From: Planctomycetales bacterium
GTDB taxonomy: Bacteria > Planctomycetota > Planctomycetia > Isosphaerales > Isosphaeraceae
DNA: 64,000 bases
Assembly (NCBI GenBank): GCA_027449865.1
Contig: DAIDKV010000231.1
Span: 1-64,000, forward strand
Direction: 5' to 3'
Shown: positions 43,863 to 52,308 of the stretch, piece after piece
Position numbering within the stretch: position 1 is the first letter of the stretch
How the letters are laid out: each line of letters starts with the position of its first letter
Translations under genes and position numbers: made by a program
The notes under the pieces: generated by a model
Seen by the model: only the letters and a program-made list of their open reading frames with translations
What the model was told of the DNA's origin: nothing
The model's database searches: none

Positions 43863-46718
43863 TCAATCGGCGACGACGACATACTCGCGGCGTCCTTTTC
43901 GGACGATGTGTCTGGGAGCGAACACCTCACGAGTGCGTCGGAGGAGCCAGTGTCCGCAGGGGACAAGCAGTGGACGCACGAGTGTGGCGTCGATCAGAAT
44001 TCCGACGACCAGCGCGAAGCCGAGTTGCCGAAGTGAGGCGAGCGGACTGAAGAGAAACGAGGCGAAGCTCGTCGCGGTGATCGCCGCGGCCGAGCTGATG
44101 AGCCCGCCGGTGTGGCCGATCGCCCGGACGATCCCGCGGCGGAGTCCTCGCTTCTGCGACTCCTCATTCAGCCGGCTCATCAGGAAGACGTTGTAATCGA
44201 CCCCAACGGCCACCAGCAGAACAAACAGGAAGTACGGGACCTTCCAGTCGAGTCCCTGCTCGCCGAGGAAGGTGACGAAGACCAGGTGTGTCGCGCCGAG
44301 TGCGAAGGCGTAGGTCAAAAGCATGGTCACGACCAGGTTCACGCACGCCAACGGGTCGCGGAGCGCCAGCAACAGGACGAGAAACACGCCAATCGGGACG
44401 ACAAACCAGCTCTGAACCTGATCGGCGTGGGTAATCTCGCGGATATCGGCCGACTCGGCATTCGCGCCGGCGATCCGGGCGCTGATGTGGAAGTCCTCGT
44501 ATTCGGCGAGGAAGTCGTGGAGTCGTCGCCTCATGGTCAGGACGAAGTTCATCGCGTCGTTCGAGAAGATCGGATCGGCCTGGGTGACGTCGATTCGGGC
44601 GTGTCGACCATCGGGCGTGATGTAGGCGGCGAAGCTTCGGATCAGCTCGGGATGATCGTGGATCGTCCCCTCATCAATGAGGAGGCGATCAAGGGCCCGG
44701 CGTCCGACCGGGTCATTGAGGATTCCGGTAACCTCGCGATGGGCTCGCGAGGCACCATTGGCGATCTGCGAAGCGCCTTCCGCGGCACGGGAGAGCTCGC
44801 GAAGTAAAACCTCCTGCGGCTTCTCGATCTTCGGCGGTTCGGACCCGGGCTTCTCGACCGGTTTCCGAGGCTCGACGGGCCGGGGCTTCGGCTCAGAAGG
44901 CGACGGGGCGGATCCCGAACGCGAGGACGGTTCACGGCCAATCGCCTCGAAGGCACCCTGCAACGCGGCGAGGTTCCAGGTCGCCGGCACGCCGTGGCTC
45001 CACTGGAGCGCCACGGAGGCTTGCTTCAACCCACTCGCCAGGGCTCCGGCACCAGCAGAAATCGGAGCGCCTGCCCGATCGAGCGCTCGATCCGTCCTGG
45101 GAGTGGAGAGCTCGGCCGGCTTGCCGCCGGCCAGTGGTAGCCCGGTTGCCTCTTCCAGCCAGATCGCCGCCCGAAGTCTGGCGGCGCCCTCGGTCAGCCC
45201 CTTGCTCAGCTCCCTGGCCCCCTCGGAAAGTTCGTGGAATCCAGCGTTCACCTCGCCCAGTCGCGAGGAAATCCGGGCGCGCGAGAGCAGCTCGGGATTT
45301 CCGAGCGGCTGGGTCGCCGACCGGACCTCGTCGATCCGTCGATGATGCGCCAGGAGCCGACTCACGTCGTCGATCAGTGCCAAGCCCTCCGACCGCCGGA
45401 AGTCGGCGTCCGACTCCAGCACAACGGTCATCGGCGCCAGGATGCCCGGGTCGAACTTCGAGGCCAGGAACCGGTAATCGTCGACGGATCGCGTCTGATC
45501 GGGCAACTCGGTCAAAAGGTCCTGAATAAAATCGGTTCGCAGCCCGAGAACCGCAAGCGGGGCCATCGCCAGGAGCGTGAACGCCCAGCTCCGGACCGGC
45601 CGGGCCATCGCCCGTTCTCCGAGCCGATCCCAGTAGTCCGTCGATCGCCGGGAGAGCCCGTCAAACGCCCCAGGCCGTACCCTCGCCAGCAGGATCAGGA
45701 GCGCGGGTGTCAGGCTGAGGGTCGCTACCAGCGCAATCAGCAGACCTATGGCCACGCTCGGCCCCGTGCTCGAGAACAACTTGAACCGCGTCGTCCCCAT
45801 CAGGAGCAATCCGACGATGATCGTCCCCGCACTGGTCGCCAGGGCGTGCAGCGACCGGCCGAGCGTCACCTGCATCGAGGTCGCCGGGTTGTTCCGGTTG
45901 AAGTGCTCGGCGAATCGCCAGGAGAGGAAGAGGCAGAAGTCGGTCCCGGTTCCGAACAGGATCGCGATCAGGAAGAGCTCGACCAGCGACGAAACTTCCC
46001 AGCCGGCCAGAACCATCCAACCGAGCAGTCCTCGGGCGAGGATCGTGCTGACGCCGATCGTGATTAGGGGGACCATTGCCAGCCAGAACGACCGATAGAC
46101 AAGCAGCAGTACGATCAGGAGGAGAACGACCGTCGCGACCGCGGCTCGATCGAGGGAGCTCTTGACGGCGGCCATGTAGTCGCGGCCGATCACCGCGTCG
46201 CCGGTCCACCGGATCTCCAGCCCGGGCGGTCGGGCTCCCGCCTCGGTATCGACCTTTCGGATCGCCCACTCCACCGCCCGATGCGAGCTCGGCGCGATGT
46301 ACGACGACGAAAGCGGAATCCCAACCATCTCGACGCTGCCATCCCCGCTGATCAGTCGGCGCGCGACCTCGGGCGACGAGCTGGGTCCGAGCACCCGAAG
46401 CACCTCGCCCGGCCGGCCCTCCTCGCCGAATCCCCCTGCCACGATCGCGGCGAACTTCCGGTCAACATCGGTCAGACCGCTCTCTCGGTGCAGCACAAGC
46501 ACGATCATCGACTCAAACGACTGATCGGGCCAGCACCGGCGGACGAGCTCGGCGGCTTGCCGGCTCCCCCCGTTGTCGAGCAGCTTCGCCTGTCCCTCGG
46601 CCGCCAGCCGGGTCAGGTCGGGCGAGACCACCCCCGCGATCACCGCCGCCAGCAGCCAGGCCAGAACCACCCAGACCGGCCGACGGATCGCCAGGATCCG
46701 CATCCCTTCCATCCTCAT
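43863..46718 (-). CDS. MMPL/RND-family transporter
   Basis: About 951 residues from the ATG at 46718 (GGGAG ten bases upstream; further ATGs at 46712 and 46703). The layout is the MmpL one: an N-terminal helix, a periplasmic loop, a first bundle of helices with ILFGTGTDFCLF (near 260), a second large loop (about 370-740) with a Pro/Lys/Glu-rich low-complexity insert, and a second bundle with LLVAVGVDYNVFLMSRL. The two GxDxxxF-type motifs carry the proton-relay Asp residues. Substrates of this family are usually lipids or hydrophobic metabolites; here it is not known. A sigma-70-like promoter lies at 46859-46886. Confidence 0.9.
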   Translation of the reverse strand: MRMEGMRILAIRRPVWVVLAWLLAAVIAGVVSPDLTRLAAEGQAKLLDNGGSRQAAELVRRCWPDQSFESMIVLVLHRESGLTDVDRKFAAIVAGGFGEEGRPGEVLRVLGPSSSPEVARRLISGDGSVEMVGIPLSSSYIAPSSHRAVEWAIRKVDTEAGARPPGLEIRWTGDAVIGRDYMAAVKSSLDRAAVATVVLLLIVLLLVYRSFWLAMVPLITIGVSTILARGLLGWMVLAGWEVSSLVELFLIAILFGTGTDFCLFLSWRFAEHFNRNNPATSMQVTLGRSLHALATSAGTIIVGLLLMGTTRFKLFSSTGPSVAIGLLIALVATLSLTPALLILLARVRPGAFDGLSRRSTDYWDRLGERAMARPVRSWAFTLLAMAPLAVLGLRTDFIQDLLTELPDQTRSVDDYRFLASKFDPGILAPMTVVLESDADFRRSEGLALIDDVSRLLAHHRRIDEVRSATQPLGNPELLSRARISSRLGEVNAGFHELSEGARELSKGLTEGAARLRAAIWLEEATGLPLAGGKPAELSTPRTDRALDRAGAPISAGAGALASGLKQASVALQWSHGVPATWNLAALQGAFEAIGREPSSRSGSAPSPSEPKPRPVEPRKPVEKPGSEPPKIEKPQEVLLRELSRAAEGASQIANGASRAHREVTGILNDPVGRRALDRLLIDEGTIHDHPELIRSFAAYITPDGRHARIDVTQADPIFSNDAMNFVLTMRRRLHDFLAEYEDFHISARIAGANAESADIREITHADQVQSWFVVPIGVFLVLLLALRDPLACVNLVVTMLLTYAFALGATHLVFVTFLGEQGLDWKVPYFLFVLLVAVGVDYNVFLMSRLNEESQKRGLRRGIVRAIGHTGGLISSAAAITATSFASFLFSPLASLRQLGFALVVGILIDATLVRPLLVPCGHWLLRRTREVFAPRHIVRKGRREYVVVAD

Positions 46719-46858
46719 CGCGAGAAGACTCCCGGACCACCCGCGGTTCGACGCCCGAAGATCCGTCTCCTCGAGTCGCCGATCGGCCTCGCCCCCTTCT
46801 TCCGTGCCCAGGGGAAAACCGGCCATCCAGCCAGGATGATCCACGAAGGTTCATCCCC

Positions 46859-46974: not shown

Positions 46975-48360
46975 TCATCGAGCGGGCGCGTTCGGGTCCA
47001 TCAATTGAGGCCGGTAGGTGTTGCAAAAGTCGATCCGCTCGCCAGGGCTCGGATGACTGGCGCGGAAGACCCAGTAAAACAGGTCGGGACGTGGAACACC
47101 CAGGTTCTCGGCCTGGAACTTGACGAAGGCCGAGGCGGCCGGGCGATTCGCACCGGTGAGGTCGAGTGCGAACCGGTCAGCCTCATGCTCCTGGTATCGA
47201 CTGTAAGCCAGCACAACCGGGCCCAGGAACAGCGACGAGAGATGCATCAGCATCAGAATCAGAGGGACCGAGGCGATGTCGGCAAGCCGGTCAAAACCCA
47301 ACCTCGACGAGAATCGAGCGATCAGCGATCGCCCAGCACGGTCGACGAAGAAGAGCCCGGCCAGGATCACCAGCGAGCCGAGCAGAATCGACCGAACAAC
47401 ATGCCCCAGCACATAATGCCCCATCTCATGGCCCATCACCGCGAGCACCTCGGGCGGGTCGAGCTTCGCCAGAAGGGTATCCCAGAGAACGATCCGCTTC
47501 GTCCAGAGGAAGCCGGTGACGTAGGCGTTCATCGCCTTCGTATCCACGCTCTTCTCAACCTCGAAAACATGGCTGCCGTCGATCCCAGCGCGGGCGGCCA
47601 GCTCGAGGATCTGGCGTTCGAGATCCGGGTTCTTCATCGGCCCAAACCGGTTCAAAAGCGGATCGATCCAGACCGGCTCGACGAGCATCGTCACGAAGAG
47701 GAACGGCACTGAGAGCAGCCCCAGGTAAAGCCACCACCGCTTCGGGCTCCAGACCATCAACGCGAACGGGACCCAGGCCAGCGCGAAGCCAACCGCCATC
47801 GAAACTCCCAACCGGGTGACCACATCGTGCAGCCACTTCCCGAAAGTTTGGTTCGAGAGACCGAAAGCGTGCAGCCGGACGAATCCCTCGTAATAGTGCA
47901 GGGGCAGGTCGATCACGAAGACAATCGTAAGATAGAGAACGATGTAAATCCCGACCGTCAGGAACCAGACCGCCCGCGACGGCCCCGTTCCCTCCCCCTT
48001 CCATCCACGCGGACTCCCGATCCTTCCGAGGAATTCGGACAGCCGACGGGCCAGATTCCGAACCCTCGCCGAGAGTCCCGAAAACGCCAGCCCGCCCGTC
48101 AGCAGGAGGGCCCAGGCCCGATTGAACGCCCAGATCGCGTTGTTGCCCCGATGGAACCGGAGCGCTTCCGGAGTCGGCTCCGGGACCGCGACCGGTCCAC
48201 TCGCGACCGCCTCCGATTCGACAGCGGCTCTCCGATCATCGGCGTAAGCAACCGCCCCGCATCCGAACACGACCGCCAGAACAAAGATCCGAACAAGCCC
48301 AACAGACCGGCGACTCCACCCCAATCCGCCTTCCCGAGGCGAATCCAAACAATTACACAC
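46975..48360 (-). CDS. M48-family membrane metallopeptidase (STE24/CAAX prenyl protease 1-like)
   Basis: About 461 residues from the GTG at 48360; the ATG at 48381 is possible. GTG is preferred because a TATACT hexamer (48383-48388) touches the ATG, and GAGGTGGGAT lies just before the GTG. The zinc site is H311-EMG-H315 (MGHEMGHYVLGH), with the third ligand likely the Glu of EHEADRFAL. Five or more hydrophobic helices surround it (VWFLTVGIYIVLYLTIVFVI, VSMAVGFALAWVPFALMV). This fits the STE24-type enzyme that cleaves membrane proteins within or next to the bilayer. It lies downstream of the JAB gene on the same strand, but an AT-rich leader suggests its own promoter. Confidence 0.88.
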   Translation of the reverse strand: MCNCLDSPREGGLGWSRRSVGLVRIFVLAVVFGCGAVAYADDRRAAVESEAVASGPVAVPEPTPEALRFHRGNNAIWAFNRAWALLLTGGLAFSGLSARVRNLARRLSEFLGRIGSPRGWKGEGTGPSRAVWFLTVGIYIVLYLTIVFVIDLPLHYYEGFVRLHAFGLSNQTFGKWLHDVVTRLGVSMAVGFALAWVPFALMVWSPKRWWLYLGLLSVPFLFVTMLVEPVWIDPLLNRFGPMKNPDLERQILELAARAGIDGSHVFEVEKSVDTKAMNAYVTGFLWTKRIVLWDTLLAKLDPPEVLAVMGHEMGHYVLGHVVRSILLGSLVILAGLFFVDRAGRSLIARFSSRLGFDRLADIASVPLILMLMHLSSLFLGPVVLAYSRYQEHEADRFALDLTGANRPAASAFVKFQAENLGVPRPDLFYWVFRASHPSPGERIDFCNTYRPQLMDPNAPAR

Positions 48361-48382
48361 ATCCCACCTCAAGTATCCCATA

Positions 48383-48429: not shown

Positions 48430-49848
48430 TCAGACAATCCGATGGGATGGCCGATCGCCCTCGCCGTGCGGGTTACGTCCCGGCTCGGGAGCGGACCTGG
48501 TTTCCTGGGGCGCCGGCCGGTAGAAGAAGAACATCGCGGCCAGGCCGACGGCCATGAGCGTGCCGAAGGCCCAGCCCGCGTAACCGACGAGCCTTGTCCG
48601 GGAAAGCTCGGAGATCAGGTCGCGAACCGCCTTGTCGCCTTCCTTGTAGTTGAGGATCGGCCCGGCGGCGTCGAGGATGCGCTGGCGGCTGTCGACCCGG
48701 TCTTCCAGGTCGACCACCTGCTGGCGGAGCTTTTCGATCTCGTCGCCCGCGGTTTTGAGCTTTGCGAGTTTCTTCTCATCGGCGTCGTACTTGCGGTTTA
48801 GCTCGTCGAGTCGGACGCCGAGTTCCTCGTTGATCGACCGCTGAGCGGCGAGAAGCTGGCGGTTGTCGTCCCGCTCCTTGAGGGTCGCGGCGTATTGCGC
48901 CAGGAACTCCTGAGGCTTTTCCGTTTCGACCTTGCGGAGAATCATCTCGTTGGCGAGTCGCTGGCCATCGCCCACCTGCTCAACGGCGCGGGCGAGTTCC
49001 CTGATGGCATCTCCCTGGTCCTGCATTCGCGTCTGGATCTGATAGAGCCAGAGAACCAGGGCCACGCCGAGGATGCCGAGGAATGTCCCGATCATCCCGG
49101 AGAGGGTGGCGATCTGCATCCGCTCGACGGGTGACGCCGTGTGAGCCTGCGCGGGTCGGGTGAGCATGTTGATCAGCTCCGCCTCGAGGCGGGGGGAGAG
49201 GGTTGCACCGCCGCCCCCCTCGGGATTGGGGAGTTTCTCCAGGTCGTTCGCCAGCCTCGCCAGCGCCACGCGGTCGCCCCGATCGGACGACAGGTAGTAT
49301 CCGCCTACCTGGGCCAGCCCGCCGTCGCGCCACTGGAAGAAGCCACGGGTCTGGTTGATCGGGTCCACCACGTAGGCAACCTGGAGCGGTTGCGAAAAAA
49401 AATTTCGATGAATAAAAAGATCGTGGTGCGACAGAAATATACCAAAACTCGGATGAGTATGGTACCATCCAACGATATCACGATCGGGATGGAGCCGGTC
49501 TCGCTCTCGGGTGATTTCCTCCCACGAGTCGTGGGTATAGGTGAAGCTCGCCTGGGTGTTGGCGTAGTGCCGGGCCTCGAGGGCCTCGGTCACCCAGACA
49601 AAGGGCTGACCGGTCGCCGGGTCGACGCACTCCTTTCCCAGCAGGATTCCGCCGAGTTCGACCGAGGTATCGCTCAGGGCGTGGCGCTCGATCGCGTCGG
49701 CGGTGCGGCGGTCGATGAAGATGGGGAGGTCGATCGGCTCGGGGACCTCGTACGCCAGGCAGGCGTACCGGCGGTCGCGATCGGGCCGGGTGAGCCGCTC
49801 GGGCTCACGGACCTTCATCTCGCCGAAGACGATCTCGTCGCCGCTCAA
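48430..49848 (-). CDS. JAB/JAMM deubiquitinase-like peptidase with two membrane helices and a coiled coil
   Basis: About 472 residues from the TTG at 49848 (GAGGGGGG about ten bases upstream); the ATG at 49818 would give 462. The JAB (MPN) domain spans about 45-185. Its JAMM zinc motif is complete: Glu64 (VELGG), His130 and His132 (WYHTHP), Ser140 and Asp143 (IFLSHHD). A hydrophobic helix follows (about 248-270, MIGTFLGILGVALVLWLY), then a Lys/Glu/Leu coiled coil (about 300-395) and a second helix (about 420-443). The protease is therefore likely anchored in the inner membrane. Its start lies just past the stop of the E1 gene. It is predicted to release the ubiquitin-like protein or mature it. 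An AT-rich patch lies over the JAMM motif. Confidence 0.92.
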   Translation of the reverse strand: MSGDEIVFGEMKVREPERLTRPDRDRRYACLAYEVPEPIDLPIFIDRRTADAIERHALSDTSVELGGILLGKECVDPATGQPFVWVTEALEARHYANTQASFTYTHDSWEEITRERDRLHPDRDIVGWYHTHPSFGIFLSHHDLFIHRNFFSQPLQVAYVVDPINQTRGFFQWRDGGLAQVGGYYLSSDRGDRVALARLANDLEKLPNPEGGGGATLSPRLEAELINMLTRPAQAHTASPVERMQIATLSGMIGTFLGILGVALVLWLYQIQTRMQDQGDAIRELARAVEQVGDGQRLANEMILRKVETEKPQEFLAQYAATLKERDDNRQLLAAQRSINEELGVRLDELNRKYDADEKKLAKLKTAGDEIEKLRQQVVDLEDRVDSRQRILDAAGPILNYKEGDKAVRDLISELSRTRLVGYAGWAFGTLMAVGLAAMFFFYRPAPQETRSAPEPGRNPHGEGDRPSHRIV

Positions 49849-49852
49849 GAGC

Positions 49853-51064
49853 TTAGTCCCCCCTCGCCTCGCGGTCGCCGTCCAGCAGGAAGAAGCCCGA
49901 TCCCGATGGTCCCTCGACCCGAACGATATCGTAAGGCGGGATCCCGATGCTTCCCAGCGGCTGGTCGACCAGGTCCGAGGATTCCCCGATCGCGCTTGCG
50001 AATTCCGGTCGCGCCGGCTCGCGGCAATCGGGGCAGATTGCCTCGCCAACCCGGACCTTCACCCTCGGCCGAAGGATCGGATCGCGACGACCGCATCTCG
50101 GGCATTCGATCGCGACGACCAGCTCGCGGTCGAGAACAAGCTCCATCGGCCCCTCGACCATTCCCCGCACAGCTTCAAACAGTTCCGCGACCGTCGATCT
50201 GTTGGTCAATGAAAGGCCCGTGGGGTCCGGGTAGGTCTCGTGACTCAGGCAATCGTCGCGGCGGGGGAGACGGGTGGCGTAGAACTGGTTGGCCACGCCA
50301 TTGAAGACGAGGGCACTGCCGGCCGCGACGGGGAGGTCGTGAAGCAGTTTGAGGGCTTCCTGAACCTGGAGCGCGGCCATCATCGAGGCGATCGTCGGCG
50401 CGGTGGGAACCTTCCCCGCGACGATCTGGTCACGGGTCAGTAGCGGACAGCTATACCGGAGGTTGAGCAGTTGGTAGTCGCGCTCGGTCATCGTGCATTC
50501 GTAGCAGGCCGAGTCGGGAGGGACGAAGACCTTGACCACGCCCTGGATCTCCTGGATGCCCGCGTCGATCCAGGGCGTCCCGACCTTCCAGCATTGTCGG
50601 TTGACCCAGAGCCGGGCCTCTCGGTTGTCGAGACAGCCGATCACGAGATCCACATCGGCGAAGGCGCCCAGACCGAGGTCGGTGATGACGTCGCCCACTC
50701 GGGCGATCACCCGGATTTCCGGGTTCAGTTCCCGGGCCCGGAGCGCGGCGACCTCCGCCTTGGGTCGCCCTCCGTCCTCGCCGCGGAAAAGAACCGACCG
50801 CGAGAGGTTCGACGGCTCGACCCGGTCGAAATCGATGACCTCGATCGTCCCCAGGCCGACCAGTGCCAGGTTTTTCAACACCTCGTTCCCCAGTGCCCCT
50901 GCGCCGACGACCAGCACTCGGGCCGAGGCGAGCCGCTCCTGTCGCCACCAGGAGATCAGCCGGAGCCGGCCGTATCGGTCGTCGTCGTCGATGATCAGGC
51001 GGTCGGCATCGCTGCCATCCGGAGAGACGGGCTCGGGCCTCATCGATCTGCTTTCCGTTCCCAT
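49853..51064 (-). CDS. E1-like ThiF/MoeB-family adenylyltransferase of the ubiquitin-like operon
   Basis: 403 residues. The ATP site G54-AGAL-G59 (VVGAGALGNEVLKNLALVGLG) is followed by IDFDRVEPSNLSR, the standard E1 nucleotide-binding block, and by GCLDNREARLWVN and WIDAGIQEIQG. A CxxC pair is at 187-190 (SACYECTM) and Cys206 (RYSCPLL) is a candidate thioester Cys; PTAPTIASMMAALQVQEALK follows. The C-terminal part has a separate zinc-ribbon pattern: Cys321, Cys324, Cys344 and Cys347 (CPRC, CPDC). It is predicted to adenylate the C-terminus of the 99-aa protein and pass it to the E2. The stop lies five bases from the JAB gene's TTG start, and the E2 gene ends 44 bases upstream. Confidence 0.93.
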   Translation of the reverse strand: MGTESRSMRPEPVSPDGSDADRLIIDDDDRYGRLRLISWWRQERLASARVLVVGAGALGNEVLKNLALVGLGTIEVIDFDRVEPSNLSRSVLFRGEDGGRPKAEVAALRARELNPEIRVIARVGDVITDLGLGAFADVDLVIGCLDNREARLWVNRQCWKVGTPWIDAGIQEIQGVVKVFVPPDSACYECTMTERDYQLLNLRYSCPLLTRDQIVAGKVPTAPTIASMMAALQVQEALKLLHDLPVAAGSALVFNGVANQFYATRLPRRDDCLSHETYPDPTGLSLTNRSTVAELFEAVRGMVEGPMELVLDRELVVAIECPRCGRRDPILRPRVKVRVGEAICPDCREPARPEFASAIGESSDLVDQPLGSIGIPPYDIVRVEGPSGSGFFLLDGDREARGD

Positions 51065-51108
51065 CGGCGCGGGGATTCCTCGGGGACGCGGCCGGCTTGT
51101 GGACGACC

Positions 51109-51936
51109 CTACTCGATGAAGACGATCTCGTCTTCGGCGCGAGAGGTCGGCCGCACTGTGCCGATCGCCCGATGCCTCTCCTCTTCACGAGCGACCGAGG
51201 CGGGCTCGTGCGATTCCGGCTCGATGATGAAGAGAGGCTCATCCACCGGCGCGAGAGGCCGTTCCGCCGCCGATTGCGCGGCCACCAGCTCCTGTAGCTC
51301 AGGATGAGACGGGAGGCGTCGCTCGCCCTCTTCGCCACGAGAGCCGAAGACTCTTCCATAACGCTCGGCGAACCGGCGGACGCGGCCCGGACCCTTCGCC
51401 GATTCCTTTGACGCCGCTGAAGCCGGAGGCGTGGCGACTGGGACCCTCCCAAGGGCCGCCCGAAGATCGCGGAGCGAGCGATCGTCGGTCGGGAACCGAA
51501 AGGTCTGCTGCTGCGCCACCCAGAGCGCGGCGTCGCGGTTGTACGGGCTTCGAATGTCGTAGTTGTGATAGCGGAGCATGTCCCAGAGCATCGTGCAGAG
51601 CTCATCAAGCTGGACGCTGGGAACCCAGTGCGTCCCGTACCCGCCGAGGCAGACCATTCCGATCTCGGAGATATTCGGATGATAGATGGGCGTCAGCCAT
51701 CGGATCTCGGGGATCCCCCGCGGATACGACGAGCCGAGCTTGATCTCGACATGGTGCTTCTCCAGGATTCGGACCTTGCCGTGATCGCGCCAGAGTCCTC
51801 GACCGAGGAACTGGATACGATAGTGGGCGGGCGGGAGGCCCTGGCTGGTGAAGCGGAAGACCGAGCTCTCGGACCGAAGCCGTTCGAGGGCCGCCAGGTC
51901 GTTGTGAAGCCGACGCTCTCTTGGGGACTGGTACAT
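51109..51936 (-). CDS. E2-like ubiquitin-conjugating enzyme fold protein with a long C-terminal tail
   Basis: 275 residues from the ATG at 51936 (AGGCAGGG eight bases upstream); an in-frame GTG at 51990 is possible. The N-terminal helix SPRERRLHNDLAAL fits an E2 start. The active-site block is HPNISEIGMVCLGG with Cys96 as the likely thioester residue. It is preceded by YPRGIPEIRWLTP and followed by the HWVPSVQLDELCTMLWDMLRYHNYD helix. After the UBC core (about 150) there is a tail of about 120 residues, basic then acidic and ending DEIVFIE. That ending resembles the N-terminus of the JAB protein. The gene sits between the Ubl and the E1 in a single minus-strand unit. Confidence 0.92.
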   Translation of the reverse strand: MYQSPRERRLHNDLAALERLRSESSVFRFTSQGLPPAHYRIQFLGRGLWRDHGKVRILEKHHVEIKLGSSYPRGIPEIRWLTPIYHPNISEIGMVCLGGYGTHWVPSVQLDELCTMLWDMLRYHNYDIRSPYNRDAALWVAQQQTFRFPTDDRSLRDLRAALGRVPVATPPASAASKESAKGPGRVRRFAERYGRVFGSRGEEGERRLPSHPELQELVAAQSAAERPLAPVDEPLFIIEPESHEPASVAREEERHRAIGTVRPTSRAEDEIVFIE

Positions 51937-52008
51937 GGATCGTTGGCCCTGCCTGGGGACCATCTGCCCGGATGGGACGAGACGCCGCACCGGCTCGATC
52001 GCCGCGAA

Positions 52009-52308
52009 TCAGCGACGACCGGCGACGACCTCGGGATAAACGATCAGATGATCGCCATTCTGGACCCCTCCCTCGACCAGTGTCCAGTTCTCCAGTAGGC
52101 GACGGCCGCCTTCCTTGTGGTCGAGGGCGTAGCTCATCGGCTGCCCGTCCGGACTGGTCGCCGGCAGGCTCATCTTGGTGATGATATTCGGGATGATCCG
52201 GCTCACGGGGACGGTGAACGCGATGACCGCCTTCACCGACTTCGCGCCGGTCTGGTCCAGGAAGGTCACCTGGACACCGCTGGGATCGGCATTGCCGCCG
52301 TATGACAT
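52009..52308 (-). CDS. Ubiquitin-like beta-grasp protein (YukD/EsaB-type), likely conjugated modifier
   Basis: 99 residues with AGGAGG ten bases upstream of the ATG at 52308. The pattern MSYGGNADPSGVQVTFLD, then ...SRIIPNIITKM, then YALDHKEGGRRLLENWTLVEGGVQNGDHLIVYP fits the ubiquitin/YukD beta-grasp core. The C-terminus is VVAGRR (Gly97-Arg-Arg), rather than a free GlyGly. If the JAB enzyme trims two Arg, Gly97 would become the reactive end; this is inference. It is first in a unit with an E2, an E1 and the JAB peptidase. YukD-like proteins are otherwise linked to ESX secretion, but no secretion ATPase is present. Confidence 0.85.
   Translation of the reverse strand: MSYGGNADPSGVQVTFLDQTGAKSVKAVIAFTVPVSRIIPNIITKMSLPATSPDGQPMSYALDHKEGGRRLLENWTLVEGGVQNGDHLIVYPEVVAGRR

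Follow-up and report, generated by a model that had tools for sequence, protein, structure and literature searches.

Ubiquitin-like systems that are best studied in bacteria are sporadic defence modules. Operons combining a ubiquitin-like protein (Ubl) with E1, E2, JAB and RING components were reportedly predicted in planctomycetes by Burroughs, Iyer and Aravind in 2011, who are said also to have raised the possibility of conjugation for YukD-like Ubls; the Pfam family Prok-RING_1 reportedly stems from the same work. According to published reviews, planctomycetes carry ubiquitin-type operons (PMC4197634). In Caldiarchaeum, pro-ubiquitin has a nine-residue tail that is cleaved by an Rpn11/JAMM peptidase, and the protein is inactive with E1 until it has been cleaved (PMC5654768).

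The operon and its catalytic residues

The window, which is the whole 64,000-nucleotide stretch of Isosphaeraceae DNA that was analysed, contains four genes on the minus strand from 52308 to 48430. These are transcribed in the order Ubl-E2-E1-JAB, with gaps of 72 nt (Ubl/E2), 44 nt (E2/E1) and about 4 nt (E1/JAB). A first-pass annotation had proposed a complete four-gene conjugation operon on one strand with short gaps, and both the coordinates and the Pfam matches, each of which is above the family cut-off, bear this out. All four genes are real, but the word "complete" overlooked a RING gene that most relatives carry beside the operon and that has been relocated in this genome.

The Ubl gene (52009-52308, minus strand) encodes a YukD-type precursor of 99 amino acids that matches PF08817 (4e-13). 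An AlphaFold model calculated with a 53-row alignment has a pLDDT of 88.6, a pTM of 0.78 and the layout beta-beta-alpha-beta-beta-beta, and it supersedes a useless single-sequence run (pLDDT 40). Its best fold matches in the PDB are SUMO1, Caldiarchaeum ubiquitin (CsUb) and the Ubl domain of EccD. The model and these matches give the beta-grasp expected of a ubiquitin-like modifier, and structure prediction, set beforehand as a possible refutation of the annotation, came out in its favour.

The last residues of the Ubl, which are modelled with low confidence, are VVAG followed by RR. The Ala-Gly dipeptide is conserved in 59 of 60 loci, in the context P-E-x-x-Ala-Gly. Its Gly is the last residue in 17 loci, and elsewhere it is followed by a tail of 2 to 68 residues that has no common sequence; a conserved Gly would be available at the C-terminus directly or after the predicted processing, and Gly-Gly itself is absent. 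Because Ala-Gly is near-invariant and the tail after it variable and unconserved, as is typical of Ubl precursors that undergo processing, the window's Ubl is probably a precursor that is trimmed by the JAB before activation. The predicted mature form comprises residues 1-97 and ends in Ala96-Gly97, with Arg98-Arg99 as the tail. This two-residue tail was missed by the first-pass annotation, as was a second, parallel system that is not visible within the window. It counts against a conjugation reading that the Ubl ends in Ala-Gly rather than Gly-Gly, and that YukD of B. subtilis, the namesake of the family, is reported as not conjugated (PMC1779556).

The E2 gene (51109-51936, minus strand) encodes a conjugating enzyme of 275 amino acids that matches PF00179 (UQ_con, 3e-13). 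The reading frame begins with ATG; an alternative GTG at 51990 is possible, and relatives align with the ATG form from its first residue onwards. Its UBC domain has an HPN motif at residues 86-88, which is invariant across 62 aligned rows, and a catalytic Cys96 that is conserved in 94% of these E2s; the rows that lack it are second or degenerate copies. The E1-like activating enzyme (49853-51064, minus strand; 403 amino acids; PF00899, ThiF, 3e-58) consists of one ThiF domain with the GxGxxG motif, here GAGALG, and a catalytic Cys206 in the crossover region, then a Zn-ribbon (C321/C324/C344/C347) and a conserved C-terminal tail. Cys206 is conserved in all 48 aligned rows, and C187, C190 and C272 are likewise invariant. 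The nearest solved structures by sequence are eukaryotic UBA7/UBA1 for the E1 and Ubc13 for the E2. Neither enzyme has an obvious membrane segment, nor does the Ubl.

The JAB gene (48430-49848, minus strand) encodes a membrane-anchored JAB/JAMM peptidase, of 472 amino acids when read from a TTG, that matches PF01398 (JAB, 2e-7) and PF14464 (Prok-JAB, 3e-7). The TTG at 49848 fits the numbering Glu64/His130/His132/Ser140/Asp143. These residues supply the E...HxH...S..D metal site of JAMM peptidases, and the set is invariant in 46 of 46 aligned JAB rows. All of the catalytic residues that had been named for the E2 (Cys96), the E1 (GAGALG and Cys206) and the JAB are therefore present where they had been placed, and conserved loss of such residues in close homologues, which had been named as evidence that would speak against the operon, was not seen; instead, they are strongly constrained.

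The JAMM domain is followed by a predicted transmembrane (TM) segment at about 249-267, a coil, and a second predicted TM segment at about 425-443. Hydropathy alone calls the first segment, after the JAMM domain, in all 25 of the Isosphaeraceae JABs and the second, close to the C-terminus, in 23 of these 25. At some loci outside the family, the JAB is a soluble protein of about 190 aa, often encoded beside the membrane form. The closest solved structure to the JAB by sequence is Caldiarchaeum Rpn11 (CsRpn11), and because CsRpn11 also trims pro-ubiquitin, the JAB is the obvious candidate for the Ubl-processing enzyme and, by analogy, would cleave the Ubl tail.

Distribution, neighbours and related gene sets

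An orthologue of the E2 is present in 30 of the 37 Isosphaeraceae genomes sampled, the window's included. The named relatives in the family are Singulisphaera acidiphila DSM 18658, Singulisphaera sp. GP187, Aquisphaera insulae, Paludisphaera soli and Tautonia sociabilis, and S. acidiphila has the E2 orthologue. As far as each was searched for, Ubl, E2, E1, JAB and RING are all absent from one genus (g209; genomes G300, G316 and G325). Most of 29 family loci, some of them truncated at contig ends, retain the order Ubl-E2-E1-JAB; in a few, such as L058 and L067, the JAB, or the E1 and JAB together, is located elsewhere. The search for conserved gene order in planctomycete genomes that had been suggested earlier thus reveals conservation across Isosphaeraceae, and the operon occurs also beyond the family. 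Because the order is conserved in the family loci, a chance arrangement is excluded. In a tree of E1 proteins, the sequences from Isosphaeraceae cluster together (79/99) within a clade of type A (100/100). The operon is a near-fixed and apparently vertically inherited part of Isosphaeraceae genomes.

Pirellulaceae and related MAGs have a larger set, comprising Ubl, E2, soluble JAB, E1, membrane JAB, a second E2 that lacks the catalytic Cys, and RING. The operon of Isosphaeraceae appears to be a reduced version of this set. The second E2 (loci L150, L152, L154-L157, L159, L160, L162 and L164-L166, which include one Abditibacteriota MAG) retains HPN in most cases. Its lack of Cys recalls UEV-type E2 variants and might indicate an arrangement analogous to the eukaryotic Ubc13-UEV pairing. 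Stand-alone E2-like proteins at L076, L077 and L078 (f2, another family of the class) have also kept HPN and lost the catalytic Cys, and no E1, Ubl or JAB gene is nearby. At 12 Pirellulaceae-type loci (L153, L154, L155, L160, L162, L165, L167, L168, L171 and L173-L175), the opposite strand upstream of the operon carries a conserved gene for an uncharacterised protein of about 255 aa.

In 16 of the 29 family loci, the gene immediately upstream of the Ubl encodes a protein (about 280-300 aa) that combines an N-terminal TM segment with a C-terminal zinc finger and corresponds to the RING-type partner of the predicted prokaryotic Ubl/E1/E2/JAB/RING operons. In the window's genus, GlpD occupies this position. 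The copy in the window's genome lies elsewhere, at G000:C40:13801-14634, and matches Prok-RING_1 (PF14446, 4.7e-8) above the Pfam cut-off; that it is unlinked to the operon counts against the RING protein as a partner. The RING gene is present in 31 of 33 genomes that have operon genes and absent from 24 of 26 that do not, which corresponds to Fisher p = 4e-12 over these 59 genomes and p = 0.005 within the family, in both cases not corrected for shared ancestry. That one genome (G301) encodes the RING protein but lacks the operon also counts against a partnership. The transmembrane Prok-RING_1 protein is likely the E3, and the predicted TM segments of the JAB and RING proteins point to a membrane setting.

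The neighbours of the operon are housekeeping genes. A Ste24-like M48 membrane protease gene (46975-48381, minus strand; PF01435 3e-36, PF16491 4e-18) is located 48 nt downstream of the JAB and is present in 19 of the 29 Isosphaeraceae loci, and it is not among the conserved neighbours of Pirellulaceae loci. Downstream on the operon strand, an MMPL transporter gene (43863-46844) is often retained alongside in Isosphaeraceae. Both genes were considered as operon members and rejected, as they are not conserved in Pirellulaceae loci and synteny is the simpler reading. The M48 protease is a possible partner of the system, linked only within Isosphaeraceae.

The window's genome also contains a second, deeply diverged Ubl/E1/JAB/RING/E2 set. 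Its E1 (C109:18624-19745), JAB (C109:17885-18478) and E2 (C109:7820-8197) are on one contig of the genome (G000; loci L115 and L074), and a second YukD-like Ubl is on another (C266:22929-23183). Between the E1/JAB pair and the E2 are genes for a Prok-RING_1 trypsin-like protease and for two membrane proteins, one of RING/zinc-ribbon and one of FHA type. Sets of type B (Ubl-E1-JAB-RING-E2) occur in planctomycetes, Riflebacteria, Acidobacteriota and others, and their E1s are separated from those of type A with full support.

Proposed function and alternatives

We consider it probable that the operon encodes a reversible Ubl conjugation system that works at the membrane. Conjugation is strongly supported by the anatomy of the genes and proteins, because the operon is conserved, the catalytic residues are constrained, the Ala-Gly end is followed by variable tails, the Ubl model is a beta-grasp, and the RING is linked. 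We infer every catalytic step as follows. The Ubl would be made as a 99-residue precursor, and the JAB domain would expose Gly97 by cutting off the Arg-Arg tail. The E1 would adenylate Gly97 and then hold the Ubl as a thioester on Cys206, after which the Ubl would be handed to Cys96 of the E2 and attached to lysines of target proteins. The membrane Prok-RING_1 protein, which is encoded away from the operon on contig C40, would probably direct this attachment, and the membrane JAB would later take the Ubl off its targets.

The role that fits best is control or quality control of membrane proteins, a guess that we hold with modest confidence because the JAB and RING are predicted membrane proteins and, in Isosphaeraceae only, a Ste24-like protease adjoins the operon, which may be mere synteny. 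A 20S proteasome was not found in the genome, so degradation is not an obvious outcome of tagging. The sole PF00227 match is HslV, beside HslU, and a proteasome partner was rejected because only HslUV is present. A broader and more speculative picture, which we regard as possible but tentative, is one of planctomycete membrane-protein control in which a membrane RING E3 and the E2, the latter with its Cys-less partner in Pirellulaceae, would attach a tag that the JAB both matures and removes, and in which a second, separate Ubl pathway with the RING-trypsin and FHA membrane proteins would give two parallel systems per cell.

Conjugation might also be real and the membrane segments of the JAB and RING serve merely to localise the machinery, with cytosolic regulators or stress proteins as targets. 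The soluble JABs found outside the family, and the membrane-free E1, E2 and Ubl, are consistent with this. However, a two-TM JAB and a one-TM RING are retained across Isosphaeraceae and at many Pirellulaceae loci, and of the two forms of JAB it is the membrane one that persists in Isosphaeraceae; we consider cytosolic targets possible but less likely. Anti-phage defence, in which a module akin to Bil, Bub or CBASS would tag phage proteins, is unlikely. Bil and the CBASS Cap2/Cap3 systems employ the same kinds of enzyme, and the E1 matches the E1-E2 models of PADLOC (best 1e-16) and, weakly, BilD (9e-9), as any ThiF protein would, but no BilA, BilB or BilC model of PADLOC is matched. Defence systems are usually patchy in distribution, whereas this operon is near-fixed and syntenic within one bacterial family, its E1s group by family, and its surroundings are housekeeping genes. 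When the E2 was used as query, no phage match and a single distant plasmid match were obtained, and carriage of the operon by mobile elements was rejected on the same result.

Two readings in which the Ubl is not attached to proteins are very improbable. The PF08817 match of the Ubl, the EccD domains among its fold matches, and one WXG100 protein elsewhere in the genome would suit a non-conjugated assembly factor of the YukD/EccD type, accessory to type VII secretion. At the locus, however, there is no WXG100 match and no EccD-type membrane fusion, and across the sampled phyla the Ubl is linked instead to E1, E2, JAB and RING, with a conserved Ala-Gly end and a variable tail. Similarly, the single-domain ThiF/MoeB build of the E1 would be expected of a ThiS/MoaD-like sulfur carrier system, in which the E1 and Ubl serve cofactor synthesis or tRNA thiolation. 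Yet the genome has two other, separate E1s of ThiF/MoeB type (on C206 and C184), an E2, a RING and a membrane JAB would have no function in sulfur transfer, and the Ubl ends in Ala-Gly, not Gly-Gly, so that we give a sulfur carrier hardly any credence. Reversible conjugation at the membrane remains the reading that we prefer.

Comparison with described systems

A YukD-like modifier and a membrane-anchored JAB, with no defence gene alongside, had been pointed out in the first-pass annotation, and this description holds. Its comparison with Bil and Bub does not identify the closest relatives, given that the neighbours among solved structures by sequence are UBA7/UBA1, Ubc13 and Caldiarchaeum Rpn11. 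Like Bil (BilABCD), the locus has Ubl, E2, E1 and JAB in one operon. In contrast to Bil, it lacks matches to the BilA, BilB and BilC models in PADLOC, its only BilD match being the weak one of the E1; it is also not patchy, has no defence context, and has a RING. The Ubl belongs to PF08817, as do those of type VII secretion (YukD/EccD), but it has a C-terminus of the processed type and E1, E2, JAB and RING partners. No secretion genes were found at the locus, where no WXG100 or EccC/EssC gene was recognised, and the WXG100 matches are on other contigs.

The operon of Caldiarchaeum subterraneum is similar in that its Ubl precursor carries a C-terminal tail and is accompanied by E1, E2, RING and an Rpn11-type JAMM peptidase (PMC5654768, PMC6043591). 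CsUb differs in its Gly-Gly end and is outside the YukD family, although it is still among the closest folds, and CsRpn11 is soluble, whereas the JAB and RING here are predicted membrane proteins. The predicted planctomycete Ubl/E1/E2/JAB/RING operons have the same components and are in the same phylum, and the linked RING matches Prok-RING_1. The system is a variant of this kind already predicted from genomics, with conjugation putative, and may be set apart by an Ala-Gly end with a presumably processed tail, a RING gene away from the operon, an E2 without Cys in Pirellulaceae, membrane anchoring of the JAB, and the presence of two systems per genome. In contrast to defence modules, it is near-fixed in a whole bacterial family; it also combines a membrane JAB with a RING-type partner, and one of its hosts is in culture. 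Whether bacteria use E1-E2-RING tagging for housekeeping is thereby made directly testable, with cleavage between Ala-Gly and Arg-Arg as a sharp first test.
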